Origin: Owenia fusiformis
Taxonomy: Eukaryota > Annelida > Polychaeta > Sabellida > Oweniidae
Direction: 5' to 3'
Length of the DNA stretch: 64,000 nucleotides
Assembly (NCBI GenBank): GCA_903813345.2
Contig: CAIIXF020000010.1
Span: forward strand, 24,409,740 to 24,473,739
Both the position numbers and the translations under genes were made by a program. Of this stretch, positions 2,429 to 58,226 are shown piece after piece. The stretch's first letter is position 1. Each line of letters begins with the position of its first letter. The notes beneath the pieces were generated by a model. It was given only the letters and a program-made list of their open reading frames with translations. It searched no databases and was not told the DNA's origin.

Positions 2429-3160
2429 AACAAGGCATTAACATGACAAAATGTCACCACCTAGTTGCTCACAATATTATGAGTTCAAACTTAAGTCAGA
2501 TTTGAATTTCTGAGAACTTGTAAAGTCAAATTTGAACTTCTGAAAAGATGTAGATGATTTTGAAAAAAAAATTTGGTCAATTTGAAGCAAGTTGAAAACA
2601 GACCTTTTTGACCTTTTTTGACCTTGAGAAGGTCATTAAAGGTCAAATGTCAAATCTAAAGTCAGATTTGAATTTCTAAGAACATGTAGATGATTTTGAA
2701 AAAAAAAATTAGTCAATTTGAAGCAAGTTGAAAAAAGACCTTTTTGACCTTTTTTGACCTTGAGAAGGTCATTGAAGGTCAAATGTCAAATCTTAAGTCA
2801 GATTTGAATTTCTGAGAACACGTAGATGATTTTGAAAAAATAAATTTAGTCAATTTGAAGCAAATTGAAAACAGACCTTTTTGACCTTTTTTGACCTTGA
2901 GAAGGTCATTGAAGGTCAAATGTCAAATCTAAAGTCAGATTTGAACTTCTGAAAACATGTAGATGATTTAGAAAAAATTGAAGTCAGTCTAAACAGTATT
3001 TGTTAAGTTATAGGAAGTTGTAAGAAATTGTTACAGACGCCGGACGCCAACCTCCAACCGCCGGACGCCAACCGCCGGACGCCAACCACCAACCGTCGTC
3101 GCAAAAAAACGGAGACCATAACAATATGTCACCACTTTTGGTGGTGACATAAAAATCTAG
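2429..3160 (+). mobile_element. Helentron-like non-autonomous element, family A, complete
   Basis: The 5' end starts AACAAGGCATTAACATG. It is followed by a small hairpin (TGACA/TGTCA) and the 11-nt motif ATGTCACCACC at 2451-2461. The body holds about four tandem units of about 115-150 bp rich in TGACCTTTTTTGACCTTGAG and AAGGTCA. Near the end lies a short GCCGGACGCCAACC repeat. The 3' hairpin at 3126-3150 has arms ATGTCACCAC and GTGGTGACAT, and it is followed by an A-rich spacer and CTAG at 3157-3160. A hairpin a few bases before CTAG is the classic Helitron 3' terminus. The copy of the stem near the 5' end matches the asymmetric terminal inverted repeats of Helitron2/Helentrons. There is no coding capacity. 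Related copies lie at 16485-17727 and 44775-47908. Confidence 0.65.
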
Positions 3161-8988: not shown

Positions 8989-9319
8989 TGTTTATAGCAT
9001 TCACATACCAACCAAATATGAACAAAATCGCTCCACTACTTTTCGAGTTACAGCAAAAATCGTAAAATAAAGAGTAAAGGCCGTCATTTTTCAAGATGGC
9101 TGCCATGTGCTTCTTTAATATCTACATTTCTAGCTTTATTAATGTCCTATATAATTTTTTTACATCTAAAATATATTGATATTACAGTTTTACATATTGC
9201 ACCTGAATTACTGTAAATTCGGCACTAAAATGGCCGCCATTTTGAAATGAGCGGCCATTTTGAAAATCGGCTTTTGAGCAGAACTTCTACCCCCATAGGG
9301 TATATGTGTATTTGAGTTA

Positions 9320-10916: not shown

Positions 10917-12185
10917 ACTTCAAAGATAACTGCCAGAATGCAAGATGGCCACCCAAAAGTTAATCAGCTTTAGAACTCGAGATCCTCTACCATGTGTGCG
11001 AACTTGACGAAAATCTGATAAGCGGTTTTCCTAAAATGGCGATGACAAACAAGTGGGACTATCACAACCAGAACAACGGCAACGCCAAAGCGTAGCGAAT
11101 CCCATCGAACAGAAATGGCTGGCATTTTTACAAACGAAGCGCAAATATCATAAGACAACACACCAGAAAGGCCACCATTTTCAAAATGGTTGCTCACTTG
11201 CCAAGTTGTCATCAGAAGAAATAATATGCTTTTAAGTAGCCACCTCTAACATTTTTGAAAAATCGCACACATGCTTGTAAAATAACACACATAAAAATGG
11301 TGGCCATTTTTCAAAATGGCCGACTACTCCCTAAAGTTTTATTAGACAATGTGCCATGCTTAAAGTATTCACATATCAATTATGAACAAAATCGCTCCAC
11401 TACTTTTCGAGTTATAGTAAAATACGTTAAAATGGCGGCCATTTTTCAAAATTGTTTTCAAAATGGCCACCTTCTACCAAAAGTGTCATAGGACAGTGTG
11501 CCATGCTTATAGTATTCACATACCAAATATGAACAAAATCGCTCCACTACTTTTCAAGTTATAAAGAAATATGTTAAAATGGCGGCCATTTTACAAATTT
11601 TTTTTCAAAATGGCCGCCTTCTACCAAAAGTGTCATAGGCAGTGTGCAATGATTATAGTATCCACATACCAAATATGAACAAAATCACTCAACTACTTTT
11701 TGAGTTACAGCAAAAATCGTAAAATGACGAGTAAAGGCCGCCATTTTTCAAGATGGCTGCCATGTGCTTCTTTAATATCTACATTTGTAGCATTATTAAT
11801 TTATAATTTTTTTTACATTTAAAACATATTGCTATTACAGTTTTACATATTGCAACTAAATTACTGTAAAATCGTCACTAAAATGGCCGCCATTTTGAAA
11901 TGAGTAGCCATTTTGAAAATCGGCTTTCGAGCAGAACTTCTAACCCCATAGGGTATATGTGTACAAAATATGAACAAAATCTGGCCAACCGTATTTGAGT
12001 TATTGCCCGGACGGACGGACGGACGGACGGACGGACAGACGGATGGACGGACGTACGTACAGACGTACGTACGGACGGACGGACGGACGGAGGCGTTCCC
12101 TATATCCCTCCGAACTTTGTTCGATGGGATAATTATGATCACGATGACTATGACGACTATATCCCACCAATGGAGTGATAAAAAT
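10917..12185 (+). mobile_element. Helentron-like family D element, split by a B element
   Basis: The left part (about 10920-11065) contains CAAGATGGCCACCCAAAAGT, TAATCAGCT and GCGATGACAAACAAGTGGGA. The right part (12133-12185) contains GATCACGATGACTATGACGA and the 3' hairpin at 12161-12179 (ATCCCACC.. ..GGAGTGAT). Both parts align in order with the uninterrupted D copy at 12471-13022, so the family B element at 11066-12132 was inserted into it. The 5' end of this D copy is not seen. Confidence 0.6.
11066..12132 (+). mobile_element. Helentron-like family B element, complete, nested
   Basis: Has the 5' end AACCAGAACAACGGC with ATCCCATCGAAC at about 11100, two to three 140-bp core units, the AAATTACTGTAAAATCGTC unit, a GACGG tract and the 3' hairpin 12104-12130 with right arm GTTCGATGGGAT. 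At about 1.07 kb it shows the normal size of the family. From about 11240 it is almost identical to 9970-10860, so both are recent. Confidence 0.7.
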
Positions 12186-12470: not shown

Positions 12471-13022
12471 AACTAGAAACAAGGCACAGGACGTGAACGA
12501 GATCACACCATCAAATAGGCAGACACTATGAACCAGGAAAACTGTTCTCCTATTATGTTTACAAATTTCAAGAACAAGAAAACAAGATGGTCGCCCAAAA
12601 GTTAATCAGCTCTAGTACTTGATATCCTCTATCATGTGTGTAAATTTGAAGGAAATCCGATGAGTGGATTTTCTGAAATAGCGATGACAAGATTTTTCGA
12701 AAAATCTTCAAAATGGCTGCCAGAAAACAAGATGGCCACCCAAAAGTTAATCAGCTCTAGTACTTGATATCCTCTATCATTTGTGTAAATTTGAAGAAAA
12801 TCCAATGAGCGGTTTTCCTGAAAACTGGCCGCCAGAAAACAAGATGGCCACCCAAAACTTAATCAGCTCTAGTACTTCATATGCTCTATTATCTCTGCGA
12901 ATATGGAGAAAATCTGATAAGCAGTTTTCCTTAAAAGGCGATGACAAAAAGCGGGACGATCATGACCACGATCACGACCACGACCAGTATGACGACTATA
13001 TCCCACCGATGGTGTGATAAAA
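12471..13022 (+). mobile_element. Helentron-like family D element, complete
   Basis: The 5' end reads AACTAGAAACAAGGCACAGG, then ACGTGAAC and the motif ATCACACCATC. The body has two to three units with CAAGATGGCCACCCAAAAGT, CTCTAGTACTTGATATCCTC and GAAAATC(C/T)GAT(A/G)AGCGG. A GATCACGACCACGACC tract precedes the 3' hairpin at 13000-13018. The hairpin's right arm GGTGTGAT plus the loop GAT is exactly complementary to the 5' motif, while its own left arm ATCCCACC is imperfect. About 0.55 kb with no coding potential. Confidence 0.65.
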
Positions 13023-20162: not shown

Positions 20163-22429
20163 AGATAAAAATTTAACCTAATTTCCCATCATCCCAGATA
20201 CATTCCCTAGTTGATCATGTAAGCAGCTTAAAGTAAGCTCTTCTAGTTGGTGAGAAATCTTGTAAGGAGAAAGATTCTGAAAGAAAAATAACTAGATTTG
20301 TAAATTGAACAAAGTTCAATTTAAGACTCCAGATTGATTTACGTGAGTAAAGAGCTGAGTAAGTAACTGAGTAGGAAGCTGAGTAAGTAGATGATTAAGT
20401 AATTGAGTAAGTAGCTGAGTAGGTAGCTGAGTAAGCAGCTGAGCAGGTAGCTGAGTAAGTAGCTGAGTAGGTAGCTGAGTAAGTAGCTGAGTAGGTAGCT
20501 GAGTATGTAGCTAAGTAGGTAGCCGAGTAGGTAAGTAGGTAGGTAAGTAGGAATTTTTGACCGGAAGTCGGATTGAAATTTGGTTTGCAGATTTGGATTC
20601 CTGAGAAAATTCTACCCTTAATTCATATACTTAGGGACCCAGCCTGAATATTTTTGTTTTTGAATATTGGAGAGTATTACGCGAGATTTTTTCATTTTCT
20701 TGTTGGAAAATATATTTATTTTATGATGTGGGGTGATATCTAGAGTTTGAGGCTTGCGAAAATAAGATATCCTCATCTTTATACCCCCACCCTATAATTT
20801 CAGGGGGGTCAGAAGAAAATAAACTTTAATTCATAACTTTGGAAGTAAATGAGATACAAACTTAATTTTTTCACCATAATTTATAGAATAACATCAGTAA
20901 TGCAGAAAAAAAATCAAACGAAAATAAGCTAATTTGCATAATTTAACCCTTAAACCGCCATAAAAACTATTAAATAACGGAATGATAATAAACAACTTTT
21001 ACTGTAATTGCCTTCATATGAAGTTATAACTTATGAAATAATTCCTAAAAATGCATCTATATATGTTTATTAGATGTGCAAAATATTAAAAGTGTATCTT
21101 ACATAACGACTGTGAAAAATATTTCTCCCCTTACCCTAAAATTGAAGGGAGGGGGTCAAAAGAAAATAAACTTTAATTCATAACTTTGGAAGTATATAAG
21201 TTACAAGCTTAATTTTTTCACCAAAATTTACAAAATAATATCAGTAATGGAGAAAAAATATTTTGAACAAAAATAAGCTAATTTGCATAATTTAACCCTT
21301 AAACCGCCATAAAAACTATTAAATGACAAAATGATAATATACAACATTTACTGTAATTACCTTCATATGAAGTTATAACTGATGAAATAATTCCTAAAAA
21401 TGTATCTATATATGTATAATAGATGTGAAAAATATTAAAAGTGCATCTTATATATAGATTGTGAAAAAATTTCTCCCCCTACCCAGATATTTCAGGGGGG
21501 TCAACTGAAAATGGACTTTAATTTATAACTTTGGAAGTATATGAGGTATAAACCTATTTGTTCACAAAATTTATGTGATAACATCAGTAACTAAGAAAAA
21601 ACATTTTTGATATGCAAATAAGCTAATTTGCATAATTTAACCCTTATACAGTCATAAAAACCGTTAAATGACAAAACGATAAAATACGACATTTATTTTA
21701 ATCGACCTCTCATGAAGTAATAACTTATGAAATAATTCATATAGTTGCATTTATATATGTATAACAGATGTGCAAAATATTAAAAGTGTATCGTACATAA
21801 CGACTGTGAAAAAAATTCTCCCCCTACCCAGATATTTGAGGGGGGGGGGTCAAAATGAAAATGGACTTTAATTCATAACTTTGGAAGTATATGAGGTACA
21901 AACTTAATTTTGCACCAATATTTATGTTATATCATCAGTAATTCAGAAAAAATATTTTTTGATATGCAAATAAGCTAATTTGCATAATTTAACGCTTTTA
22001 AAGTAATAAAAACCGTTAAATGACGAAGTGATAAAATATTGCATTTACTTTAATTGACTTCTTATGAAGTTATAACTTCGAGAAAAAAATTACAACAGAT
22101 ATGCACAATATAAAAAGGTTATTTTATATAATGAGTGTGAAAAGAATCTTACACCCTACCTTAATAATTTTGAGGGCTCGGGGGGGGGGGGGGGAGGGGT
22201 TAAAGAAAATAATAGACTTTAACTCATAACTTTGAAATAATTTAAGAAAGAGCTTATATTTCTTCGCTGAAAATTGAGAAATCACATCAATAATGAAACG
22301 AATATTACACGGGGACAATACTATATTTCAACTAATTTGCATAATTTAAGCTTCAAACAGTCATGAGAATCATTATAAGGCAAAGTGGTTCTATACTGAA
22401 ATTGACTTCACATGAAGTAAGGACTTTGA

Positions 22430-27100: not shown

Positions 27101-27140
27101 TTGCTAAGAAAACGTGACAAGAGAGAATAATAATAACTAG

Positions 27141-28789
27141 ACATGTAAATTGAACAAGTTCAATTTAAGACTCCAGATTTCAGACTTTTTTAAGCTGAGT
27201 CATCCAAATACTTGTAAGCTGAGTCATTCAGAATAAGCTGAGTCAGCTAGAATATAGACATTTAGTCTCTTAAGATGATTGGCTTAACATGGGGATATCA
27301 TCATATCGACTTTTCGAGACTTCAAACCGCTATAACTATCTAATCAGAAGTTGGATCGAAATTTGGTTTAAAGATTCTGATTCCTGAGAAAATTCTACCC
27401 TTAATTCATAACTCATACGTTAAATTTGGAGAACTTTTTATTTTGACCTACTTTTCAGACACCATATCTCAAAAGTGGGTCAAAATACTTTCTGACGGCA
27501 GAAGGCTAACACTATAAGCACACTCTTTGCTACCTGTAGACAAAATTTCGAAGCAAATCATTAAAGTGTAATGTCAGAATCGCAAAAATAAGGAAAAACT
27601 ATGAATTTGACCTAGATTTTGACCTAGGCATTTTGGTGTCCAAATTTTAAAGCTAGATAGCCTTCGAGGTCCCCTTCTTTTATAGGCTTTCAGAATGTTA
27701 AGCTGTACTCAGTTTATATCTGGTATTTTACACTTCGAAAAAGTCTTTTTTCCCATTGACTTAACATAGGCACCAAATTTAGCGATTTTTGAGCTTTCAA
27801 AACGCCATAACTTCCGAACCGGAAGTCTGATCCAAATTTGGTTTGCAGATTCGGATTCCTGGGAAAATTTTGCTCTTAATTCATAGCTCATATGTTAAAT
27901 TTGGAGAACCTTTTATTTTGACCTACTTTTCGGACACCATATCTCAAAAGTGGGTCAAAATACTTTCTGACGGCAAAAGGCTAACACTATTAGCACACTC
28001 TTTGCTACCTGTATACAAAATTTTGAAGTAAATTATTAAAGTGTAGTGTCAGAATCGTAAAAATAAGGAAAAGCTATGAATTTGACCTAGATTTTGACCT
28101 AGGCATTTTGGTGTCCAAATTTTGAAGCTATGTAGCTTTTGAGGTCCCCTTCTTTTATAAGCATTCATTATGTTAAGCTCTACTCAGTCTATATCTTGTA
28201 TTTTAAACTTCGAAAAAGTCTTTTTTCCCATTGACTTAACATAGGCACCAAATTTAGCGATTTTTGAGCTTTCAAAACGCCATAACTTCCGAACCGGAAG
28301 TCTGATCCAAATTTGGTTTGCAGATTCGGATTCCTGAGATCATTCTACACTTCTTTCATAACTCTCATGTTGAATCTGGAGAACTTTTTGTTCTGACCTA
28401 CTTTTCGGACGCAATATCTCAAAATCGGTAAGAGTAATCAAAAAACGATTTGCCATACGGAATTAGCGTTTTTTCCAAGGAACATGATGAAAAAAACCCG
28501 GAGCGAAAATATTGAAAGAGGACTGAGAAAAGTGGTGAATTAGTGAAAATCCAAGATTTGACCTAGTTCTTGACCTATGACCTAGATAAAAATTTGACCT
28601 AATTTCCCAGAAAGCCAGATACATTCCCTAGTCAACCATGTAGGTTGGATTAAGTAAGATGTTATAGTTGGAGAGAAAATCTGTTAGGAGGAAGAAAGAA
28701 AGAAAGAAAGAAGGAATAATAAGAAAACAGGCAAAAAAAATAGACTCCAGATTTTCAATCTGGAGTCTAATAATAATAATAATAACTAG
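27141..28789 (+). mobile_element. Helentron-like family E element 3
   Basis: 5' end ACATGTAAATTGAAC/GTTCAATTT then AGACTCCAGATTTC. Two 480-bp units follow, then the TGACCTA-rich tail, an AAAGAAAG tract and the full 3' hairpin at 28742-28768 with arms AGACTCCAGAT and ATCTGGAGTCT. The end is (AAT)n and ACTAG at 28789. Frames of 60-66 codons inside are repeat-borne. Confidence 0.65.
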
Positions 28790-30501
28790 ATTTTGGAAAT
28801 TGAACGAGTTCAATTTCAGACTCCAGATCTAGACTTTTTTTAGCCGAGTCATCCAGAATAAGCCAAGTCATCCAAAATAAGCTAAGTCATCAAGAAAAAG
28901 AAGGATGGATGGATGGCTAGATGGATGGATGGATGGATGAAAAAGGAAGGAAGGATAGGATAGAATAGGAAGGAACGATAGGATAGAATAGGAAAGAAGG
29001 ATAGAATGAATAGGAAGAAGGGATAGAATAGGAAGGAGAGGATACGAAGCAAGGGTAGATAGGAAGGATAGGATAGGATAAGAAAGGAAGGATGGATGCA
29101 TTTTTCAATATTTTCTTCTCTACTCTTGACTTTCTATCAGGATACCATCAGATCGATTTTTCTTATGATTTCTGAGAAAATTCTATTCTTAATTCATAAC
29201 TCAATTTGGAGAACTTTTTATTTTGACCTACTTTTCGGACACCATATCTCAAAAGTGGGTCAAAATACTTTCTGACGGCAAAAGGCTAACGCTATTAGCA
29301 CACTCTTGGCTACATGTATACACAATTTCGAGGAATATAATTAAAGTGTAGTGTCAGAATCGAAAAAATAAGGATAAACTATGAATTTGACCTAGATTTT
29401 GACCTAGGGATTTTGGTGTCCAAATTTTGAAGTTAGGTAGCCTTCAAGGTTCCCTTCTTTTATAGAAATTCATTATTTTAAGCTGTACTTAGTCTTTATC
29501 TCGTATTTTACACTTCAAAAAAATCTTTTTTCCCATTGACATAACATGGGGCACCAAATTTAGAGATTTTTGAGCTTTCAAAATGTCATAACTTTCGAAC
29601 CGGAAGTCGGATCAAAATTTGGTTTGCAGATTCGGATTCCTGAGAAAATTCTATACTTAGTTCATAATTCACACATTAAATTTGGAGAATTTTTTATTTT
29701 GACCTACTTTTCGGACACCATATCTCAAAAGTGGGGCAAAATGTTTTCTGACGGCAAAAGGTTAACACTATTAGCGCACTCTTGGCTACATGTATACAAA
29801 ATTTCGAAGAATATAATTAAAGTGTAGTGTCAGAATAGCAAAAATAAGGAAAAACTTTGAATTTGACCTAGGTTTTGACCTAGGCATTTTGGTGTCCAAA
29901 TTTTGAAGCAAGATGGCTTTTGAGGTCCCATTCTTTTAAAAGGTTTCATTATATTTAGCTGAACTCAGTCTATATTTCGTATTTTTCACTTCAAAAAAAT
30001 CTTTTTTCCCATTGACTTAACATGGGCACCAAATTTAGCAATTTTTGAGCTTTCAAAACGCCATAACTTCCGAACCGGAAGTCTGATCCGAATTTGGTTT
30101 TCAGATTCGGAATCCTGAGAAAATTTCCTATAAGACTGATATCCTGGACATTGGATTCGGAGAACTTTTATTTGGACCTCGTTTTCGGACACTGATATCT
30201 CAAAATCGTTTTGAGATACCAAAAAACTAAATCGACCCAAGCTTTTCTACTTTTTTATGAGGAACACAATGAAAAAAAACCGGATCAAAAATATTGAAGG
30301 ACGACCGAGATAATGGGAAAAAGTGACAAAGTACTGGATTTGACCTAGTTCTTGACCTTTGACCTAGATAAAAATTTGACCTAATTTCCCAGAAAGCCAG
30401 ATACATTCCCTAGTTTACCATGTAGGTTGGATTAAGTAAGATGTTATAGTTGGAGAGAAAATCTGTTAGGAGGAAGAAAGAAAGAAAGAAAGAAGAACTA
30501 G
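28790..30501 (+). mobile_element. Helentron-like family E element 4
   Basis: 5' end ATTTTGGAAATTGAACGAGT with hairpin GAAATTGAAC/GTTCAATTTC and AGACTCCAGATCTAG. Then come AGCCGAGTCATCCAGAATAA repeats, a GGATAGGATAG microsatellite and 480-bp units. It ends in AAAGAAAGAAAGAAGAACTAG without the terminal hairpin. Confidence 0.6.
28895..29100 (+). repeat. GGATGGAT/GGATAGGATA microsatellite
   Basis: Purine-rich tract near the 5' end of element 4. The apparent proline/serine-rich frames on the minus strand (28868-29108) are products of this tract. Confidence 0.85.
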
Positions 30502-32080
30502 ATTTGTAAATTGAACAAAGTTCAATTTAAGACTCCAGATTGATTTACTTGAGTAAAGAGCTGAGTAAGTAACTGAGTAGGAAGCTGAGTAAGTAGATGA
30601 TTAAGTAATTGAGTAAGTAGCTGAGTAGGTAGCTGAGCAGGTAGCTGAGCAGGTAGCCGAGTAAGTAGCTAAGTAGGTAGCTGAGTAAGTAGCTGAGTAA
30701 GTAGCTGAGTAGGTAGCTGAGTATGTAGCTAAGTAGGTAGCCGAGTAGGTAAGTAGGTAGGTAAGTAGGAATTTTTGACCGGAAGTCGCATTGAAATTTG
30801 GTTTGCAGATTTGGATTCCTGAGAAAATTCTACCCTTAATTCATAACTCATACGTTAAATTTGAAAACCTTTTTATTTTGACCTACTTTTCGGACACCAT
30901 ATCTCAGAAGTGGGTCAAAATACTTTCTAACGGCAAAAGGCTAACACTATTAGCATACTTTTTGCTACCTGTATACAAAATTTCAAAGCAAATCATCAAA
31001 GTGTAATGTCAGAATCGCAAAAATAAGGAAAAACTATGAATTTGACCTCGATTTTGACCTAGGCATTTTGGTGTCCAAATTTTGAAGCTATTTAGCCTTC
31101 GAGGTCCCCTTCTTTTATAGGCTTTCAGAATGTTAAGCTGTACTCAGTCTATATCTCGTATTTTACACTTCAAAAAAATCATTTTTCATATTGACATAAC
31201 ATAAGGCACCAAATTTAGCGATTTTTGAGCTTTCAAGACGCCATAACTTCCAAACCAAGAGTCGGATTGAAATTTGGTTTGCAGATTCGGATTCCTTAGA
31301 AAATTCTACCCTTAATTCATAACTCGTACGATAAATTTGGAGAACTTTTTATTTTGACCTACATTTGGGACATCATATCTCAAAAGTGGGTCAAAATACT
31401 TTCTGACGGCAAAAGGCTAACACTATTAGCACACTATTTGCTACCTGTATACCAAATTTTGAAGCAAATTATTAAAGTGTAGTGTCAGAATCGTAAAAAT
31501 AAGGAAAAACTATGAATTTGACCTAGATTTTGACCTAGGCATTTTGGTGTCCAAATTTTGAAGCTATCTAGCTTTTGAGGTCCCCTTCTTTTATAAACAT
31601 TCATTATGTTAAGCTGTGCCCAGTCTATGTCTTGTATTTTACACTTCGTAAAATCTTCTTTCCCATTGACTTAACATGGGGCACCAAATTTGGCGATTTT
31701 TGAGATTTCGGATCGAAATTTTGTTTGCAGATTTGGATTCCTGAGATAATTCTACATTTATTTGATAATTCACACATTGAATTTGGAGAACTTTTTATGT
31801 TCTGACCTACTTTTCGGACGTCATTTCTCAAAATCGGTAAGAGTAATAGGAACATGATAAAAAAAAACGGAGCAAAAATACCAAAGGACGACTGAGAAAA
31901 CTTGTAAAATAGTGAAAACCCACGATTTGACCTAGTTCTTGACCTTTGACCTAGATAAACATTTGACCTAATTTCCCAGAAACTAGGTCTCATTACCTAG
32001 TTGACTATGTTAGCAGATTTAAGTAAGTCCTTCTAGTTGCTGAGAAAACGTGACAAGAGAGAAAGAATAATAATAACTAG
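30502..32080 (+). mobile_element. Helentron-like family E element 5
   Basis: 5' end as in element 2 (AAATTGAAC/GTTCAATTT, AGACTCCAGATTGA), with the GTAGCTGAGTAA minisatellite to 30770, two to three 480-bp units, and the DR1-bearing tail. Ends AATAATAATAACTAG at 32080. Confidence 0.6.
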
Positions 32081-33667
32081 ACATGTAAATTGAACAAGTT
32101 CAATTTAAGACTCCAGATTTCACATTTTTTTTAAGCTGAGTCATCCAGAACTTGTAAGCTGAGTCATTCAGAATAAGCTGAGTCAGCTAGAATATAGACA
32201 TTTAGACAACTTTTAAGAAGGCTATCTTCGACTCTATTAGCTTAACATGGGGATATCATCATATCGACTTTTCGAGACTTTAAACCGCTATAACTATCTA
32301 ACCAGAAGTTAGATCGAAATTTGGTTTAAAGATTCTGATTCCTGAGAAAATTCTACCCTTAATTCATAACTCATACGTTAAATTTGGATAATTTTTTATT
32401 TTGACCTACATTTCGGACACCATATCTCAAAAGTGGGTCAAAATACTTTCTGACGGCAAAAGGCTAACACTATTAGCACACTCTTTGCTACCTGTATACA
32501 AAATTTTGAAGCAAATTATTAAAGTGTAGTGTCAGAATCGTAAAAATAAGGAAAAACTATGAATTTGACCTAGATTTTGACCTAGGCATTTTGGTGTCCA
32601 AATTTTGAAGCTATGTAGCTTTTGAGGTCCCCTTCTTTAATAATAGTTCATTATGTTGAGCTTTACCCAGTCTATATCTTGTATTTTACACTTCAAAAAA
32701 GTCTTTTTTCCCATTGACTTAACATGGTGCACCAAATTGAGCGATTTTTGAGATTTCAAAACGCTTTAACTTCCGAACCAGCAGTCGGATCGAAATTTAG
32801 TTTGCAGATTCAGATTCCTGAGAAAATTCTACTCTTATTTCATAGCTCATATGTTAAATTTGGAGAACTTTTTATTTTGACCTACATTTCAGACACCATA
32901 TCTCAAAAGTGGGTCAAAATACTTTCTGACGGCAAAAGGCTAACACTATTAGCACACTCTTTGCTACCTGTTTACAAAATTTTGAAGCAAATTATTAAAG
33001 TGTAGTGTCAGAATCGTAAAAATGAGGAAAAACTATGAATTTGACCTAGATTTTGACCTAGGCATTTTGGTGTCCAAATTTTGAAGCTATGTAGCTTTTG
33101 AGGTCCCCTTCTTTTCTAGGCATTCATTATGTTAAGCTGTACTCAGTCTATATCTTGTATTTTACACTTCGAAAAAGTCTTTTTTCCCATTGGCTTAACA
33201 TGGGCACCAAATTTAGCGATTTTTGAGATTTCAAAACGCAATAACTTCCGAACCGGAAGTCGGATCTAAATTTTGTTTGCAGATTCGGATTCCTGAGATA
33301 ATTCTACACTTATATGATGATTCACACGTTGAATTTGGAGAACTTTTTATGTTCTGACCTACTTTTCGGACACCATATCTTAAAATCGGTAAGAGTAATC
33401 AAAAAACGGTTTACCATTCGTAATAAGCTTTTTCTAAGGAACATGATGAAAAAAACCCGGAGTGAAAATACCGAAGGACGACTGAGAAAACTTGTAAAAA
33501 AGTGAAAAACCACGATTTGACCTAGTTCTTGACCTTTGACCTAGATAAAAAGTTGACCTAATTTCCCAGAAACTAGGCCTCATTACCTAGTTAACTGTGT
33601 TAGCAGATTTAAGTAAGTCCTTCTAGTTACCGAGAAAACGTGACAAGAGAGAAAGAATAATAACTAG
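32081..33667 (+). mobile_element. Helentron-like family E element 6
   Basis: 5' end ACATGTAAATTGAAC/GTTCAATTT and AGACTCCAGATTTC, nearly the same as element 3. Two and a half 480-bp units, the DR1 at 33530-33542, and end GAATAATAACTAG at 33667. Its first 150 bp include AAGCTGAGTCATCCAGAA and ATAGACATTTAGACAAC. Confidence 0.6.
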
Positions 33668-35710
33668 ATTTTGGAAATTGAACGAAGTTCAATTTCAGAC
33701 TCCAGATCTAGACTTTTTTTTAGCCGAGTCATCCAGAATAAGCCGAGTCATCCAGAATAAGCTGAGTCATCTAGAAAGAGATGGATAAATAAAATAGGAA
33801 GGTAGGATAGGATAGAATAGGAAAGAACGATAGGATAGAATAAGAAAGAAGGATAGGATAGAATAGAATAGGAAGAAAGGATATAGGGTGATCAATAAAT
33901 AAGGTAAAAGTATCTGGCATTTTGTAAATATTGGTCCAAACATCCTGAAATTTGGTCAGAATAATGATCAAACATTATTGAATTGATATATCAAGTTACA
34001 GATCAAAGTGATGTGATTGGTTGAAGTTATAGTTGCCATAGCAACAGAAAGCATGATAATAGGATAGGATAGGAAGGAAAAGATATGAAGGAAGGATAGA
34101 TAGGAAGGATAGGATTAGGATGAGATAGGAAGGATAGGATAGGATGAGATAGGAAGGATGGATGAATTTTTCAATATTTTCTTCTCTACTCTTGACTTTC
34201 TATCAGGATACCATCAGATCGATTTTTCTCGAAAATTCAAAACGCTATAACTTCCGAACCGGAAGTAGGAGTAAGTTCTTCCCCTAATCCATAACTCATA
34301 CGTTAAATTTGGAGATTTTTTATTTTGACCTACTTTTCGGACACGCCATAACTTCCGAATCGGAAGTCGGATCGAAATTTGGTTTGCATATCCGGATTAC
34401 TGACAAAATTCTACTCTTAATTCATAATTCATATATTAAATTTGGAGAACTTTTTATTTTGACCTACTTTTCGGACACCATATCTCAAAAGTGGGTCAAA
34501 ATACTTTCTGACGGCAAAAGGCTAACACTATTAGCATATTCTTGGCTACATGTATACACAATTTCGAAGAATATAATTAAAGTGTAGTGTCAGAATTGAA
34601 AAAATAAGGAAAACCTATGAATTTGACCTAGATTTTGACCTAGGCATTTCGGTGTTCAAATTTTGAAGCTAGATGGCTTTTGAGGTCCCCTTCTTTTCAA
34701 GGCTTTGATTATATGAAGCTGAACTCAGTCTTTATTCCGTATTTTTCACTTCAAAAATTTTTTTTTTCCCATTGACTTAACATGGGCACCAAATTTAGCG
34801 ATTTTTGAGTTTTCAAAACGCCATAACTTCCGAACCGGAAGTCGGATCAAAATTTCGTTTCCAGATTCGGAGTCCTGAGAAAATTTCCTATAAGACTAAT
34901 ATTCTGGACATTTGATTCAGAGAACTTTTTTTTGGACCTCGTTTTCGGACACTGATATCTCGAAATCGGTTTGAGATATCAAAAAACTAAATCGACCCTA
35001 GGTTTCCTACTTTTTTATAAGGAACACAATGAAAAAAACCCGGATCGAAAATATTGAAGGACGACCGAGAAAATCGAAAAAAGTGACAAAGTACTGGATT
35101 TGACCTAGTTCTTGACCTTTGACCTAGATAAAAATTTGACCCAATTTCCCACCAACTAGATACTGAACCTAAATAAACTGTATTATGGTACTTACTGGAT
35201 ACCTCATAGTTATTGAAAAAACTCCCAAAGAATAATAAGAATAAGAATAAGAAGAAGAATAAGAATACTGGCAAAAACAATAGACTCCAGATTGACATCT
35301 GGAGTCTAATAAGAAAACCGGCAAAAGCAATAGACTCCAGATTTTCAATCTGGAGTCTAATAATAATAATAATAAGAAGAAAACTGGCAAAAGCAATAGA
35401 CTCCAGATTTTCAATCTGGAGTCTAATAATAAGAAAACTGGCAAAAGCAATAGACTCCAGATTTTCAATCTGGAGTCTAATAATAAGAAAACAGGCAAAA
35501 ACAATAGACTCCAGATTTTCAATCTGGAGTCTAATAACAATAGAGAAAACAGGCAAAAACAATAGACTCCAGATTTTCAATCTGGAGTCTAATAATAATA
35601 AGAAAACTGGCAAAAGCAATAGACTCCAGATTTTCAATCTGGAGTCTAATAAGAAAACTGGCAAAAGCAATAGACTCCAGATTTTCAATCTGGAGTCTAA
35701 TAATAACTAG
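33668..35710 (+). mobile_element. Helentron-like family E element 7, with expanded 3' hairpins
   Basis: 5' end ATTTTGGAAATTGAACGAAG with GAAATTGAAC/GTTCAATTTC and AGACTCCAGATCTAG. Includes a GGATAGGATA tract to 34165, 480-bp units and the DR1 at 35113-35125. In place of one terminal hairpin it carries eight in tandem (35282-35698), then AATAATAACTAG. Around 33890-34050 a unique stretch splits the microsatellite. Confidence 0.65.
35282..35698 (+). repeat. Eight tandem copies of the family E 3' hairpin
   Basis: Hairpins at 35282-35307, 35332-35358, 35398-35424, 35452-35478, 35506-35532, 35564-35590, 35621-35647 and 35672-35698, each with arms AGACTCCAGAT and ATCTGGAGTCT. The linkers are near-identical, of the form (AAT)nAAGAAAACTGGCAAAAGCAAT. 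Both strands stay open across it (233 codons minus, 165 codons plus) only because the unit lacks stops; this is not coding. Two further hairpins in tandem end element 8 (38187-38211, 38245-38271), and one ends element 3. Confidence 0.9.
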
Positions 35711-38283
35711 ATTTTGGAAATTGAACGAGTTCAATTTCAGACTCCAGATCTAGACTTTTTTTTGCCGAGTCATCCAGAATAAACCAAGTCATCCAAAATA
35801 AGCTAAGTCATCAAGAAAAAGAAGGATGGATGGATGAATTGATGAAAAAGGAAGGAAGGATAGGATAGAATAGGAAGGAACGATAGGATAGAATAGGAAA
35901 GAAGGATAGAATAGAATAGGAGAGGATACGAAGCAAGGGTAAGGATAGGATAGGATCAGAAAGGAAGGATGGATGCAATATTTTCTTCTCTATTCTTGAC
36001 TTTCTATCAGGATACCATCAGATTGATTTTTCTTGAAATTTCAAAACGCCATAACTTCCGAACCGGAAATCGGATCGAAATTTGATTTGCAGATTCGGAT
36101 TCCTGACAAAATTCTACCTCTAATTCATAACTCATACGTTAAATTTGGCGAATTTTTATTTTGACCTACTTTTCGGACACGCCATAACTTCCGAACCGGA
36201 AGTCGGATTGAAATTTAGTTTGCAGATTCGGATTTTTGAGAAAATTCTATTCTTAATGCATAACTCAAACGTTAAGTTTGCAGAACTTTTTATTTTGACC
36301 TACTTTTCGGACACCATGTCTCAAAAGTGGGGAAAAATACTTTCTGACGGCAAAAGGCTCACACAATTTTGAGGAATATAATTAAAGTGTAGTGTCAGAA
36401 TCGCAAAAATAAGGATAAACTATGAATTTGACCTAGATTTTGACTTAGGGATTTTGGTGTCCAAATTTTGAAGTTAGGTAGCCTTCGAGGTTCCTTTCTT
36501 TCATAGGCTTTCATTATTTTAAGCTGTACTTAGTCTATACCTCGTATTTTACACTTCAAAAAAATCTTTTTTCCCATTGACATAACATGGGGCACCAAAT
36601 TAAGCGATTTTTGAGCTTTCAAAATGTCATTACTTCCGAACCGGAAGTCGGATCGAAATTTGGTTTGCAGATTCGGATTCCTGAGAAAATTCTATACTTA
36701 GTTCATAACTCACACGTTAAATTTGGAGAATTTTTTATTTTGACCTACTTTTCGGACACCATATCCCAAAAGTGGGGAAAAATACTTTCTGACGGCAAAA
36801 GGCTCACACTATTAGCACACTCTTGGCTACATGTATACAAAATTTCGAAGAATATAATTAATCTGTAGTGTCAGAATCACAAAAATAAGGATAATAAGGA
36901 ATTTGACCTAGATTTTGACCTAGATTTTGACCTAGGCATTTTGGTGTACAAACTTTAAAGCTAGATGGCTTTTGAGGTCCCATTCTTTTAAAAGCTTTGT
37001 GTAATACTATGTTTATTGGATTACATTAATAGCTATCAGCTAATACAAAATGTTTTCCATACACATTATTTAATGTTATCATTGGTAAAAAAGGGGGGGG
37101 TGCAGCATTGGGAGACATAAGATTATTTTTACAATCTTCGTGAATTAATGAAGTATCGATGGAGTTCTTCGAATAATAATTTGTTTTCCTCGTCAGAAAG
37201 AAAAGTATTCCCATTGAGAATAATGTTTACTTTTCATGATTTGTTGTCAAACTAATCGAGGGTTTGTCTATGCATATTTCGTTAAGCGTGTTTAGTAGAT
37301 CGTTTCGTTGAACGTTGAGAGATGGACAGCTAAGGATAAAATGTGTGATTGTTTCATTACCATTTCCGCAGAGGGGACAACTTGGAGAGTCGATTAACCT
37401 CATGGAAAATAAATGCGAATTCAGTTGCGTGAGGCCTAATCTAAAACGGGCATGAATTATATTAACTTTGCGGTCGCCGCCATAATACAGTTTCTGAAAC
37501 CTTTTATTTTGATTAAATAAATGTCTTTTCAATTCAAATTTGAAAAGGTTAAAAGTGGTTTTATCTTTTATTGCTTTTGGAAGGTCGTTCCACGTCCTTA
37601 TGACAGAGGGAATAAAAGAGTTTCGGAGTAATTTAAAAAGCTTTCATTATATTTAGCTGAACTCAGTCTATATTTCGTATTATTCCCTTCAATAAAATCT
37701 TTTTTCCCATTGACTTAACATGGGCTCCAAATTTAGCGATTTTTGAGCTTTCAAAACGCAATAACTTCAGAACCGGAAGTCTGATCCAAATTTCGTTTTC
37801 AGATTCGGAATCCTGAGAAAATTTTCTATAAGTCTAATATCCTGGACATTTGATTCGAAGAACTTTTTTTTGGACCTCGTTTTCGGACACTGGTATCTCG
37901 AAATCGGTTTGAGATATCAAAAAACTAAATCGACCCTAGCTTTTCTTCTTTTTTATAAGGAACACATTAAAAAAAAAAACGGATCGAAAATATTGAAGGA
38001 CGACCGAGAAAATCGGAAAAAGTGACAAAGTACTGGATTTGACCTAGTTCTTGACCTTTGACCTAGATAAAAATTTGACCCAATTTCCGAGGAACTAGAT
38101 TCTGAACCTAAATTGACCAAATTTTACAGTTATTGAGAAAACTTGCTTAGAATAATAATAAGAATAAGAAAACTGACGAAAACAATAGACTCCAGATTTC
38201 ATCTGGAGTCTAATAATAATAATAAGAAAACTGGCAAAAGCAATAGACTCCAGATTTTCAATCTGGAGTCTAATAATAACTAG
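35711..38283 (+). mobile_element. Helentron-like family E element 8, with LINE insertion
   Basis: 5' end ATTTTGGAAATTGAACGAGT and AGACTCCAGATCTAG, microsatellite to 35975, then 480-bp units. It is interrupted by a LINE fragment at 36999-37631, and resumes with the same unit. The 3' end has the DR1 at 38052-38064, two tandem 3' hairpins and AATAATAACTAG across 38272-38283. Confidence 0.65.
36999..37631 (-). mobile_element. LINE 3'-end fragment with target-site duplication
   Basis: The minus strand encodes SFIPSVIRTWNDLPKAIKD, then RLGLTQLNSHLFSMRLI and CPLCGNGNETITHFILSC, the C-terminus of an APE-type LINE. A 3' UTR with CCAATAAAC follows. TTTTAAAAGCTTT at 36986-36998 and TTTAAAAAGCTTT at 37632-37644 are the duplicated target, which is single-copy in other 480-bp units. 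Heavily 5'-truncated. The C-terminal frame is open, so the insertion is fairly young. Confidence 0.8.
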
Positions 38284-40100
38284 ACTTTTGAAGATTGCAA
38301 GCAATCTCACGGAGGCCCTCTTAGGCATTTTTGACAATTTGAAGGTCAACTAAAGGACAAATATCAAATCTGAGGTCAGATGTGAACTCTTGAGAACTTG
38401 TAGATGATTTTCAAAAAAAAAGATTTTGTCAATTTGAAGCAAGTTTAAATTTGACCTTGAAAAATTTCGAAATTGACCTTTTTTCAGCTTTTGAACTCTT
38501 ATATCTCAAACTGGGACAAAATTCCATTAGATAGTCAATTGCTAATATATGTAGAACCATTAGAGGAATGTGTATATTTCGACTTCGGATTAAAAATATT
38601 GGTTTGTAGTCTCGAACTTTGCGAAACTTAGATAGCACAGTTTGTGACCTAATTTCATGATCTTGACCTTTGACCCTGAAAAGTTTTACTTTTTTAGACC
38701 TCAGTAGGTCTTTTGTAATTAGGCTAACCTAAATTTGAATCCAAAGACTCAATTTGAAAAATTTAACCTTTCAAAGGTCATTGAAGGTCAACTAAAGGTC
38801 ACAGAATAAATCTGAGGTCAGATTTGGACTCCTGGGAACTTGTAGATGATTTTAAAAAAAAAATTTGGTCAGATTGAAGCAAGTTGAAAAATGACCTTTT
38901 TTGACCGTTTTTCAACGTCAAATATCTCAAAACTCGTAAAAATTCAATGCTGACATAGTGAACAATTTGTAGAAAATACTAAAATGTAGTTTCAATTTAA
39001 TTCATCGCAAGAAATAATGAAGAATAAGGACAAAGTTAAGAAACTTGTAAAAATTTTAGATTTGACCTAATTTTTAACTTTTGACCTAATTTGATAACCG
39101 TGACCCTTGACCTTGAAAATTTTACTGTTTTAGAGCTCAGTGGGTCTTTTATGATAAGGCCTACCCTAAATTTGAATCCAAAAACTCAATTTGAAAAATC
39201 AACTTTTCTGACCTTTCGAAGGTCACTGAAGGTCAACTAAAGGTCAAATGTCAAATTTGAGGTTAAATATGAACTCCTGAGAAGTTGTAGATGATTTTAA
39301 AAAAAAAGTTGGGTGAATTTGAAGCAAGTTAAAATTTGACCTTATAAACTTTGAAAAATTGACCTTTTTCAGTTTTTGAGCTCTTATATCTCAAAACTGG
39401 GACAAAATTTTAATAAATAGTCAATGACTAATATGTGAAGAACCCTTAGAGAAATGTATATCTTGACCTTCAATCAAAAATATTGATTTATAGTCTTGAA
39501 CTATGAGAAACTTATATAGCACAGTTTGTGACCTAATTTGAAAACCTTGACCTTTGACCTTGAAATTTTTACTTTTTTAGACCTCAGTAGGCTTTTTGTA
39601 ATTAGGCTGACCTAAATTTGAATCCAAAGACTCAATTTGAAAAATCAAGTTTTCTGACCTTTCGAAGGTCACTGAAGGTCAACTAAAGGTCAAAGGTCAA
39701 ATTTGAAGTCAGATTTGGACTCCTGGGAACTTGTAGATGATTTTTAAAAAAAAATTGGTCAGATTGAAGCAAGTTGAAAAATGACCTATTTTAACCGTTT
39801 TTTGACGTCAAATATCTCAAAAACAGTAAAAATTTAATGCTGACATATAGTGAACAATTTGTACAGAATACTTAAATGTAGTTTCAGTTTAATTCATCGC
39901 AAGAAATAATGAAGTATAATGACAAACTTGAGAAACTTGAAAAAAACTTAGATTTGACCTAGATTTTGACCTTTGACCTTGACCTAGATAAAAAATATTT
40001 TCCCCCCAATTTCAGCCAAGGTTCCTAGTAGGATCATATAGTAGGTAGTTGAAAGCTAGTTGGAAGTAGGAGAAAAATGCTTTGATAGAATAATAACTAG
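38284..40100 (+). mobile_element. Helentron-like family F element (array member 9)
   Basis: Starts immediately after CTAG with ACTTTTGAAGATTGCAAGCA, hairpin GATTGC/GCAATC. The body is three to four units of about 440 bp with TTGAAGCAAGTTGAAAAATG, ACCTCAGTAGGTCTTTTGTA and many (A)AGGTCA motifs; it shares blocks with family A and with 45110-45600. Ends GAATAATAACTAG at 40100. I could not see a terminal 3' hairpin, so either it is truncated or this family has diverged there. Confidence 0.55.
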
Positions 40101-41284
40101 ACATTTAAAATCGCCACGGGGGCGATTTCGTAGAATGCCGTTCCTCGCCGCAGCAGCAAATTCGGTGCACAATTGACCTTTTTCAAGGTCACGCAGAGGT
40201 CGAATTCCAAAACCGAAAGCATATTTGATATCATATTTTGCCATATTTTTGAAATTTTGGCACTCAATTTAAAAACCTTTTTGACCTTTTCAAGGTAACC
40301 CGGAGGTCAAATTCCAAAACCACAAGCATATTTAGAATCAGGGACATCCATACTTCATACTTGCAAAGAATTGGAATGAAAATCACCCAAATTATAAACC
40401 CTAGAGATATGTTAAATGGGAAGAGTAAGGCATGCAAAAAATAACTACAGTGGCTCCTTGAACAGGTAAAACAAGAAATAAGTTTTACGTCATTTTATGG
40501 TCAAGGTCAAAGGTCAAGGTCAAAGGTCAAAATGTTGACCTAATTTACTCTAGTTTAGTACAGTGTAATACAATGGTACCAATTTCGAATCAATTTTAGC
40601 AATTTAACCTTTTTGACCTTTTCAAGGTCACCCGGAGGTCAAATTCTAAAACCACAAGCATATTTAGAATCAGGGACATCCATACTTCATACTTGCAAAG
40701 AATTGGAATGAAAATCCTAGTTTTCAACTTTGAGGTCATTTGAAGGTCAATGTCAAAGGTCAAGGTCAAAATGGTGACCTAATTTACTCTATCCGAGTAC
40801 AGTGTAATACAATGGTACCAATTTGGAATCAATTTGAGCGATTTTGATTTTTGAACTTGTTGACCTTTTCAAGGTCACTCAGAGGTCGGATTCCAAAACC
40901 GAAAGCATATTTGGAATCAGGGGCTTCTATTCTTTATATCTGCTCAGAATTGGGATCGGATACACAGTTTTCAAATTTTGCCCCACTGGGGTGCCCCATT
41001 TTTCAAATTTGGGGCACCCAATTTTAAAACCCGGAATATATGTGAAATGGCAATTGTGAGGGATAGCATATGCAAATTTTGGGTAAAAAATAAAAATGGT
41101 TACTCCTTGTACGTGCAAAAATGTAAAAATTTGCGATTTGACCTTGGCTAATTAGGGAGGGGCTAATTAAAAAAATGAAGGCATTTCCCTGTAGCCCAGG
41201 AACATGTCAAGGTTGATGGTATATGCTAATTAGCTGACATGTCGGTGTGTGCGGAGAAATCTTGCGTGGAATAATAATAACTAG
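40101..41284 (+). mobile_element. Helentron-like family G element, copy 1 (array member 10)
   Basis: 5' end ACATTTAAAATCGCCACGGG with hairpin AAATCGCC/GGCGATTT, followed by the stem motif AGAATGCCG. Tandem units of about 135-330 bp contain TTGACCTTTTCAAGGTCAC, CAAGGTCAAAGGTCA and GGAATCAGGG. Ends TGCGTGGAATAATAATAACTAG at 41284 without the terminal hairpin. Over the shared length it is almost identical to the next element. Confidence 0.65.
40501..40530 (+). promoter_or_regulatory. Two adjoining DR1 AGGTCA repeats
   Basis: AGGTCAAAGGTCA occurs at 40504-40516 and again at 40517-40529, with the extended half-site TCAAGGTCA typical of SF1/ERR-type receptors. One of the densest such clusters in the window. 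Function is inferred only from motif identity. Confidence 0.4.
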
Positions 41285-42412
41285 ACATTTAAAATCGCCA
41301 CGGGGGCGATTTCGTAGAATGCCGTTCCTCGCCGCAGCAGCAAATTCGGTGCACAATTGACCTTTTTCAAGGTCACGCAGAGGTCGAATTCCAAAACCGA
41401 AAGCATATTTAGAATCAGGGACATCCATACTTCATACTTGCAAAGAATTGGAATGAAAATCACCCAAATTATAAACCCTAGAGATATGTTAAATGGGAAG
41501 AGTAAGGCATGCAAAAAATAACTACAGTGGCTCCTTGAACAGGTAAAACAAGAAATAAGTTTTACGTCATTTTACGGTGAAGGTCAAAGGTCAAGGTCAA
41601 AATGTTGACCTAATTTACTCTAGTTTAGTACAGTGTAATACAATGGTACCAATTTCGAATCAATTTGAGCAATTTTAGCAATTTAACCTTTTTGACCTTT
41701 TCAAGGTCACCCGGAGGTCAAATTCCAAAACCACAAGCATATTTAGAATCAGGGACATCCATACTTCATACTTGCAAAGAATTGGAATGAAAATCCTAGT
41801 TTTCAACTTTGAGGTCATTTGAAGGTCAATGTCAAAGGTCAAGGTCAAAATGGTGACCTAATTTACTCTATCCGAGTACAGTGTAATACAATGGTACCAA
41901 TTTGGAATCAATTTGAGCGATTTTGATTTTTGAACTTGTTGACCTTTTCAAGGTCACTCAGAGGTCGGATTCCAAAACCGAAAGCATATTTGGAATCAGG
42001 GGCTTCTATTCTTTATATCTGCTCAGAATTGGGATCGGATACACAGTTTTCAAATTTTGCCCCACTGGGGTGCCCCATTTTTCAAATTTGGGGCACCCAA
42101 TTTTAAAACCCGGAATATATGTGAAATGGCAATTGTGAGGGATGGCATATGCAAATTTTGGGTAAAAAATAAAAATGGTTACTCCTTGTACGTGCAAAAA
42201 TGTAAAAATTTGCGATTTGACCTTGGCTAATTAGGGAGGGGCTAATTAAAAAAATGAAGGCATTTCCCTGTAGCCCAGGAACATGTCAAGGTTGGTGGTA
42301 TATGCTAATTAGCTGACATGTCGGTGTGTGCGGAGAAATCTTGCGTGGAATAATAAAAATAAGAAAAAGGCGAAAACTATAGAATGCCGTTTCTTCGAAA
42401 CCGGCATTCTAA
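41285..42412 (+). mobile_element. Helentron-like family G element, copy 2 (array member 11)
   Basis: Same 5' end as copy 1. It lacks one internal unit of about 135 bp near its 5' side but otherwise differs at only a few positions; the 71-codon frames at 40844 and 41923 are identical. This copy carries the complete 3' end: AATAAGAAAAAGGCGAAAACT, then the hairpin at 42381-42410 with arms AGAATGCCG and CGGCATTCT. It closes the 24-kb array. Confidence 0.7.
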
Positions 42413-45008: not shown

Positions 45009-46073
45009 CTAACTCATCTATGCAATCTATCTTTCTTAAATGGCATATTTCTTGATATTCTCAAAACAGCAAAAAAAATAGGACCAACGGTCCTGTGCTC
45101 ACACAGTTTGGAACCTTCAGAGGAATGTATATCCTGACTTTCAAACAAAAATATTGACTTGGATTTGTAGTCTCGAACTTTGAGAAACTTAGACAGCACA
45201 GTTGTGTGACCTCGTTTGATGACCTTTGACCTTGAAAATTTTACTTATTTAGAGTTCAGTAAGGTCTTTTGTGATTAAGCTGACCAAAATTAACATCCAA
45301 AAATCAATTTGAAAAATCAATTTTTTTGACCTTTCGAAGGTCACTGAAGGTCAAGTAAAGGTCAAATCCTAAAACTAATGTCAGATTTTAGTTCCTGGCA
45401 ACTGGTAGATGATTTTCAAAAAAAATTTGGTCAAATTGAAGCAAGTTGAAAAATAACTTATTTTTACTGTTTTTTGACATCAAATATCTCAAAAACTGTA
45501 AAAATCTGATGCTGACATATATTAAGCAATATGTAGGGAATGCTTAAATCTAGTAATGGTGTAATTCATTGCAAGAAATGATCAAGTATAAGGCAAACTT
45601 TGAGAAACTTGTCAATCACAAAACCTGCCATTGACTTTATACATGAGAAAGTTTCCTGATACTTTTTGTCAAATTTTATAGAGTAAACACCAAAAACTGT
45701 AATTCCAAGAGCTTTGAAATCTTCAGAGGACATAAGTTGCATATACAGCATCTACTTAAAGTTATTTAAAAGTTCTACTTCAACAAAGTGTCTAGTATTT
45801 ACAGAAAATTTGACTTTTTGACGTCAAAATCCGCAATTTCTCAGAAACCGGACGAAATTGGGAAATGGCGACAATGAGTCAAATAGGCATTATGGATATG
45901 CATAAAATGAATGTGGATATGACTCAATCCGAATAGCAGTTTTAATTTGTGCGGCCAATGTTGACGGACGGAGGGACGGACGGAGGGACGGACGGACGGA
46001 CGGACGGACGGACGGATGGACCAACGGACGGACGCCTGGTCGATCCCATAGGCTCACTGTGTGAGCCAATTAC
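45009..46073 (+). mobile_element. Helentron-like family H element
   Basis: A 5' hairpin AGGACC/GGTCCT at 45080-45094 is followed by GTGCTCACACAG. The body (45110-45900) shares blocks with family F (TTGAAGCAAGTTGAAAAATA, TTTGACATCAAATATCTC). A GGACGG tract at 45963-46033 and the 3' hairpin at 46051-46067 (GGCTCAC/GTGAGCC) follow. The 5' CTCACACAG is the exact complement of CTGTGTGAG in the 3' hairpin. The true 5' boundary between 45009 and 45080 is uncertain. The 3' tail is replaced by the LINE that follows. Confidence 0.5.
45963..46033 (+). repeat. GGACGG microsatellite
   Basis: GGACGGAGGGACGGACGGAC-type tract just before the family H 3' hairpin. Confidence 0.9.
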
Positions 46074-53404: not shown

Positions 53405-53510
53405 CTTTCAGATATAAGAGAGATTCAGCTACATGCATTGAGCAAAACTTGAATGTGTAATATTGTGACCCTAAGCAAAATTTTTCCCCCATCCAACCGT
53501 TTATAATAAT

Positions 53511-57174: not shown

Positions 57175-58226
57175 AACAAGGCACAGACGTGAACAATATC
57201 GTACCTAAAACACAGCATTGTGGTCTTGTTGACCAAGAAAGCAAGATGGCCGCAGAACTAGAACTAGAACTTATCACTGTGTAACATATGTAAAAATTTG
57301 AACGGTTTGGCTGGAAACCTGTAGACAAGTCTTGAAAGTGAAGATTTTAGGACGGAAAATCCAAAATGGCCACCTTAAGATTTACCCAGAATGCCCAAAA
57401 ACTAATCAGTTCTTGACGTTGATATGTAGAAACATCCCTGAAAATTTCAGATGAATCCCTCAAATGGTTTGGCTGGAAACCTGTAGACAAGTCTTGAAAG
57501 TGAAGATTTTAGGACGAAAAATCCAAAATGGCCACCTTAAGATTTACCCAGAATGCCCAAAAACTAATCAGTTCTTGACGTTGATATGTAGAAACATCCC
57601 TGAAAATTTCAGATGAATCCCTCAAATGGTTTGGCTGGAAACCTGTAGACAAGTCTTGAAAGTGACGATTTTAGGACGGAAAATCCAAAATGGCCACCTT
57701 AAGATTTACCAAGAATGCCCAAAAACTAATCAGTTCTTGACGTTGATATGTAGAAACATCCCTGAAAATTTCAGATGAATCCCTCAAATGGTTTGGCTGG
57801 AAACCTGTAGACAAGTCTTGAAAGTGAAGATTTTAGGACGGAAAATCCAAAATGGCCACCTTAAGATTTACCCAGAATGACCAAAAAAACTAATCAGTTC
57901 TTGACGTTGATATGTAGAAACATCCCTGAAACTTTCAGATGAATCCCTCAAATGGTTTGGCTGGAAACCTGTAGACAAGTCTTGAAAGTGAAGATTTTAG
58001 GACCGAAAATCCAAAATGGCCACCTTAAGATTTACCCAGAATGCCCAAAAACTAATCAGTTCTTGACGTTGACATGTAGAAATATCCCTGAAAATTTCAG
58101 ATGAATCCCTCAAATGGTTTGGCTGGAAACCTGTAGACAAGCTGAAAAGTGAGACGCCGCCCGCCGCCCACCCGCCCGCCCGTCAAGCTGACTACAATAT
58201 CGTACCTTTTGTTAGGTACGATAAAA
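57175..58226 (+). mobile_element. Helentron-like family C element, complete
   Basis: 5' end AACAAGGCACAGACGTGAAC then ATCGTACCTAA at 57198-57208. Body of five tandem units of about 163 bp containing AATGGCCACCTTAAGATTTA, TAATCAGTTCTTGACGTTGA and GGTTTGGCTGGAAACCTGTA, nearly identical to each other. After GCCGCCCGCCGCCCACCCGC, the 3' hairpin at 58199-58222 has right arm TTAGGTACGAT, fully complementary to the 5' motif; the left arm pairs over nine positions only. Ends AAAAACTT. Confidence 0.7.
57322..58140 (+). repeat. Five near-identical 163-bp tandem units
   Basis: Period judged from GTAGACAAGTCTTGAAAGTG at about 57322, 57486, 57648, 57810 and 57972. Differences are single bases and one small insertion, pointing to recent amplification or homogenisation. 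Confidence 0.85.

Follow-up and report, generated by a model that had tools for sequence, protein, structure and literature searches.

Repeated elements in the window

The window, meaning the whole stretch of 64,000 nucleotides of Owenia fusiformis DNA analyzed here (contig CAIIXF020000010.1, positions 24,409,740 to 24,473,739), carries on its minus strand many repeats of one build, which were identified as non-autonomous rolling-circle transposons. Each element runs from T-rich sequence through a hairpin, a microsatellite, and tandem central repeats of about 100-480 bp to a tail. Its two ends share an inverted repeat (ATIR) of 9-13 nt, terminal and within the hairpin at one end and subterminal at the other. 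The 5'-ATIR forms the first arm of the hairpin, a few bases from the terminus and beside the T-rich sequence, and folds with its downstream neighbor; the complementary 3'-ATIR lies roughly 20-40 nt inside the opposite terminus. In families E and F, a clear second hairpin adjoins the subterminal 3'-ATIR (10 bp in E and, judged by eye, about 8 bp in F; in A and B only about 3 bp, also by eye). Reverse transcriptase frames of the non-LTR retroelement type are also present in the window:

5789-9121, minus strand: frame with RVT_1 and Exo_endo_phos_2
46275-46832, plus strand: RVT_1 frame
51905-53407, minus strand: RVT_1 frame

The interval 28790-28850, at which an earlier sequence-only reading placed its main observation, contains a family E tail. 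Other tails intervene between this tail (28784-28828) and the next head upstream on the same strand. The family E features are as follows:

28784..28828, minus strand: family E 3' end, tail type c; 3'-ATIR AGACTCCAGAT (as read on the plus strand) at 28818-28828; terminus ...TCTAGTT
28796-28817, minus strand: family E 3' hairpin of tail type c, 10 bp
28741..28769, minus strand: family E 5' end with the 13-bp terminal hairpin of the next minus-strand element, just to the left on the plus strand
27135-27178, minus strand: family E tail type b, belonging with the head at 28741..28769
35281..35699, minus strand: family E 5'-terminal hairpin unit in eight tandem copies, spacing 50-66 bp
33662..33707, minus strand: family E tail type c, linked to the head array 35281-35699; run 11 versus stem 12
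35705..35749, minus strand: family E tail type c, linked to the heads at 38186-38272; run 11 versus stem 12
20290..20337, minus strand: family E tail type a (AGACTCCAGATTGA, at 20324), without a linked head
30496..30543, minus strand: family E tail type a (AGACTCCAGATTGA, at 30530), without a linked head

Between 20290 and 35749, family E tails of types a, b, and c follow one another, several of them without a hairpin head, and this stretch looks like a tandem array whose inner copies lost their 5' ends. The hairpin unit itself is also tandemly repeated at the 5' terminus: among the clusters examined, 4 of 28 in family A, 1 of 33 in B, and 10 of 23 in E hold two or more units. The units are spaced 46-66 bp apart (26 in the B case), and family F hairpin units on C6 occur in runs of 3 and 4. 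Such repetition may arise by slippage between T-rich stretches or by repeated rounds at the end. At the other extreme of size, some very short A-like copies (L028, L031, L033, L037, L039, and L047) consist of little beyond the two ends, the tail following the head by only 106-135 bp.

The ends of the remaining families in the window are:

3125..3151, minus strand: family A 5'-terminal hairpin, 5'-ATIR ATGTCACCACC
2429..2461, minus strand: family A 3' end, 3'-ATIR at 2451-2461, terminus ...CCTTGTT
58198..58223, minus strand: family B 5'-terminal hairpin, 5'-ATIR TATCGTACCTAA
57175..57208, minus strand: family B 3' end, 3'-ATIR at 57197-57208, terminus ...CCTTGTT
12104..12130, minus strand: family C 5' hairpin, imperfect (ATCCCATCGAAC/GTTCGGAGGGAT)
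11072..11111, minus strand: family C 3' end, exact 3'-ATIR of 13 nt
55719 to 54600, minus strand: family C, second element, a linked head-tail pair
12999..13019, minus strand: family D 5' hairpin, imperfect
12478..12512, minus strand: family D 3' end, 3'-ATIR at 12502-12512 (11/11)
42380..42411, minus strand: family F 5' hairpin, 10 bp with inner pairs beyond a bulge
41279..41324, minus strand: family F 3' end, 3'-ATIR at 41315-41324 with a 3' hairpin
40095-40140, minus strand: family F, second tail
46048..46070, minus strand: family H hairpin, GGCTCAC/GTGAGCC with a loop of 3, no four-T run adjoining
45097-45107, minus strand: family H partner motif GCTCACACAGT

Family H, with a single example and no four-T run beside its hairpin, is the weakest case. 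The letters A-H were assigned in this analysis; the sequence-only reading gave its families without coordinates. Its A, B, and D apparently correspond to those used here, and its C (11 versus 9) could not be matched with certainty. That reading followed the plus strand, so its "3' hairpin" is the 5' hairpin here; its right and left arms correspond to the 5'-ATIR and the hairpin partner, respectively, and its 5' motif to the 3'-ATIR.

Insertion sites, polarity, and class

In alignments, conservation is lost upstream of the T-run that precedes the head and downstream of CCTTGT in the tail, both for family A (19 heads, 18 tails) and for family B (26 of each), although the T-run in these fetched copies partly reflects selection, the search patterns having required four T's beside A and B heads. 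Left flanks found a match in other sequences for 13 of 44 copies, and four copies were inspected among the matches listed. For a B copy (L066, position 265), whose flank was unselected, the empty relative L072 shows a plain run of T's where the element is inserted. A G copy in L035 has empty relatives (L026 and L027) that show a run of about nine T's at the site. These two clean empty sites reveal a T-run target and no target duplication; the empty site for L067 is a rougher fit, and the candidate junction for L065 is not clean.

The hairpin end, flanked by the T-run, is most likely the 5' end, judging by two features shared with published Helitron2 elements, insertion at a T-run and asymmetric repeats. 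The labels in the sequence-only reading were the opposite, which made the hairpin a rolling-circle terminator at the 3' end. Such an orientation is favored by one F pair enclosing a Helitron_like_N match, in which the protein reads towards the hairpin end, and the describers of DINE-1 termed its 5' and 3' labels arbitrary (PMC2374699). However, several published elements are known to carry a reversed Rep, and Helitron2 inserts after TTTT (PMC3627910), in a description that we read as placing the self-pairing ATIR on that side. Moreover, a T-run flanks the hairpin end even in the copies unselected for T's (L066 and L035). A 3' hairpin end is accordingly improbable, and the two labels were most likely reversed.

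With regard to class, the elements display a terminal ATIR that folds with downstream bases (imperfectly in C, D, and G), a complementary subterminal ATIR at the other end, and, in two copies (L066 and L035), insertion at a T-run without target site duplication. Membership in Helitron2/HINE is thus supported by structure and insertion site, and the proposal of a Helitron2/Helentron with asymmetric inverted ends was right, as the ATIR anatomy matches the published definitions. Canonical Helitrons (Helitron1) have no inverted repeats shared between their ends, carry one 3' hairpin, and insert between A and T, whereas the elements described here combine shared inverted repeats and a terminal hairpin with, in two copies, a T-run target. 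The terminus TCTAGTT of the E and F tails is reminiscent of the CTRR end of canonical Helitrons; this CTAG is the one resemblance.

Complementarity between the two ends

All eight families (A-H) carry, at one end, a motif complementary to an arm of the hairpin at the opposite end. Nine linked elements in the window (one A, one B, two C, one D, three E, and one F) have a longest exact head-tail run of 10-13, compared with a mean of 4.7-5.1 for 1000 first-order simulated tails per element. The largest simulated run per element was 8-12, which equals the observed run in A (11) and exceeds it in F (12 versus 10). The match is therefore beyond chance for the set of elements and not for every single family: the A and F elements alone are indecisive, whereas the set and the linked copies are decisive.

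Per-copy comparisons were made on 56 linked head-tail copies from five families (19 A, 26 B, 2 C, 8 E, and 1 F). D and H are single examples outside this sample, and G is one of the 26 B rows, which include the G copy of L035 and an inner head of L080. Three of the 19 A rows (L035, L065, and L071) resemble false head-tail links and were retained in the counts. Tails were found by a fuzzy motif, without selection for the ATIR. Copies in L024-L083 were retrieved on the basis of perfect hairpin arms next to four T's, which makes them uninformative on hairpin decay.

The longest exact head-tail run was set against the longest hairpin stem, with the closing T-A pair counted and the same rule applied throughout. 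In family B, the run was longer in 18 of 26 copies, equal in 1, and shorter in 7, and typical linked copies gave 12 versus 10. Both C copies had longer runs (12-13 versus 6 contiguous stem pairs), as did the single examples of D (11 versus 8 stem pairs including a mismatch), G (10 versus 5 contiguous pairs), and H (11 versus 7 contiguous pairs). Family A behaved differently, with 1 copy longer, 10 equal (11 versus 11), and 8 shorter out of 19; the "11 versus 10" cited previously had left out the T-A pair outside the arms. In family E, a run of 11 faced a stem of 12-13 in all eight linked copies, and a ninth element (head 28769, tail 27135) gave 12 versus 13, so that E was shorter in nine of nine. 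The single F copy had a run of 10 and a stem of 10, with further hairpin pairs past a bulge.

Five families (B, C, D, G, and H) thus show more pairing end to end than within the hairpin; typical A copies tie, E pairs more weakly end to end, and F no better. The sequence-only reading had held that the motif out-pairs the left hairpin arm in every family; this surplus is instead family-dependent, and as a universal rule it is ruled out by E and F, with A tying. The "14 versus 12" given for family E arose from joining tail type a (AGACTCCAGATTGA; the 14 traces to the copy at 20290..20337) to the head of a different copy, other tails intervening before the nearest heads. The pattern named as evidence against the idea, a hairpin pair that the other end lacks, is found in family E: position 12 of L007 and L008 is paired in the hairpin and unpaired with the tail.

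Folding energies and conservation of the hairpin arms

Using DNA parameters, the head-tail duplex was compared with the folded hairpin, as had been proposed. The duplex was lower in 12 of 19 A, 25 of 26 B, both C, all eight E, and the one F copies. A control in which the hairpin partner was also supplied as a separate strand, equal in length to the tail, left the tail stronger than the partner in 11 of 19 A, 18 of 26 B, and both C copies, and in the single examples of D, G, and H, but in none of the eight E copies and not in the one F copy. Because the control abolishes it, the apparent advantage of the duplex in E and F is the loop cost that any hairpin pays. Hairpin-versus-duplex energies were thus discarded as proof of a switch.

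The two hairpin arms of family A were counted genome-wide with patterns that had fixed exact flanks and covered only heads with a 5-nt loop. The exact ATIR arm was found in 1168 heads, the exact partner arm in 1048, and both in 739. Equal mutability is expected for both arms because they are reverse complements, and 429 heads retained only the ATIR arm versus 309 that retained only the partner arm, in copies that share ancestry. This hint that the ATIR arm outlasts its partner is a modest new datum, given that the copies are related. Together with C, D, and G, in which the ATIR-ATIR match is exact while the hairpin carries mismatches, it could be taken to mean that the primary selected signal is ATIR-ATIR pairing rather than the terminal hairpin, a proposition we consider unlikely.

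These data also bear on an obligatory strand switch, the mechanism put forward originally, in which the ATIR-ATIR duplex displaces the terminal hairpin. In its favor are the duplex energies of the sample and the excess of intact ATIR arms in family A. Nevertheless, part of the energy gap is hairpin loop cost, as E and F illustrate, and the arm excess comes from copies of shared descent; an obligatory switch is considered less likely than not. A stronger contender, at slightly less than even odds, is that the complementarity is kept only as two binding sites for one Rep protein and that the ends never pair. The same pattern would follow from any inverted repeat that one protein recognizes; the three segments resemble one another in the families studied, and the tails of E and F pair no better than the hairpin arm does. 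On the other hand, the exact ATIR-ATIR matches of C, D, and G, despite their hairpin mismatches, indicate that the ATIRs matter, in a way that leaves pairing and protein binding unseparated.

The preferred reading, to which we assign a probability of about 0.85 as a whole, is that the families are the ends of non-autonomous Helitron2/Helentron-type rolling-circle transposons (HINEs), that the T-run end is the 5' end, and that ATIR-ATIR pairing can replace the hairpin partner. As part of this reading, the extra pairs in some families arise where the ATIR is too long for the stem that its loop allows and where the hairpin partner is mismatched, and there is no universal design. At a single-stranded stage, the 3'-ATIR could pair with the 5'-ATIR in place of the latter's hairpin partner. 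Following Bao & Jurka, such pairing would hold both ends next to each other for the Rep protein and may mark the end point of a replication round. The strand switch, a proposal drawn from the sequences of the ends, fits the observed pairing and is a plausible hypothesis; it is not new, having been published by Bao & Jurka in 2013, and the every-family surplus offered with it fails.

Abundance and candidate Rep-encoding elements

Exact hairpin patterns were counted across the 498-Mb genome, with 2644 matches for E, 1161 for A, 328 for B, and 62 for F, compared with 0 for the reversed-pattern control of each. The E pattern is palindromic and has an identical count on both strands. Tails are likewise abundant, with 1840 exact 25-mers for family A and 77 matches with at most two mismatches for family F.

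The genome also contains 58 matches to Helitron_like_N (PF14214), 42 of which lie in open frames of 1416-3377 aa with no stop within the match, which suggests that rolling-circle elements may have been active recently. A family F head and tail separated by 27.5 kb (C12 19506442-19534005) enclose one such match (19514795-19515382) in an open frame of 3164 aa, making this pair a candidate giant autonomous element; its Rep is antisense to the direction used here. No Rep protein was tied to A, B, or E. An autonomous A element was considered at the Helitron_like_N match at C1 4667175 and rejected: a same-strand head lies at 4658498, but the next exact A tail only at 5013018.

Comparison with published systems

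Overall, the observation is partly confirmed and largely known. In Helitron2, the 5'-ATIR lies 0-2 bp from the terminus and pairs downstream to form a 5' hairpin, the subterminal 3'-ATIR is directly upstream of a 3' hairpin, and insertion in the family described occurs between TTTT and T/C without a TSD (Bao & Jurka 2013; PMC3627910). The families described here share the 5'-ATIR hairpin, the subterminal 3'-ATIR, and, in two copies, insertion at a T-run without a TSD; they differ in sequence and in comprising several families in one genome, with per-copy counts. Bao & Jurka also suggested that ATIR-ATIR pairing destroys the 5' hairpin and fixes the replication end point, and described two related CQu elements with compensatory changes (PMC3627910). 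The notion of one end opening the hairpin of the other was thus already in print in 2013. In the open-licence literature searched, as far as its available text goes, no test of the ATIR-ATIR pairing step was found.

Repeats longer than their hairpin partner are likewise on record, both for oyster HINEs and for DINE-1. The Cg_HINE elements of the Pacific oyster normally carry a subTIR of 11-12 bp and a complementary IR of 7-12 bp located 1-12 nt away from it (Vojvoda Zeljko et al. 2020; PMC7492417); the terminal repeat can therefore exceed its hairpin partner. These elements resemble those of Owenia in their microsatellite, central satellite-like repeats, 3' palindrome (clear here in E and F), and oligo-T target, but their sequences are different, and the strand-switch argument was not met in the available part of that account. 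DINE-1 has a 13-bp subTIR whose IR complements it only in part, and the sequence of its 3' stem-loop varies among species, which was read as compensatory change (PMC2374699, 2008). Its subTIR is longer than the hairpin partner, as in some of the families here, in other sequences and another host lineage.

HINE/Helentron elements possess palindromic subterminal inverted repeats of 12-15 bp, at a distance of 2-4 nt (5' end) or 38-60 bp (3' end) from the terminus (Thomas et al. 2014; PMC4067079), and share with the present families the 3' palindrome (clear here in E and F), T-rich targets, and, in some copies, microsatellites or tandem repeats. For FoHeli of Fusarium oxysporum, joined ends were detected by PCR (PMC5148889). 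There, too, the inverted repeat can itself belong to a hairpin, although these elements are fungal and FoHeli1 and 2 insert between TNAT and T.

Against this background, the dense repeat set of the Owenia genome is assigned to a known transposon class and its polarity is argued. With thousands of copies in several families whose ATIR sequences are unrelated, it is well suited to a test of the idea, put forward in 2013, that the end point of Helitron2 replication is fixed by pairing of the two ATIRs.
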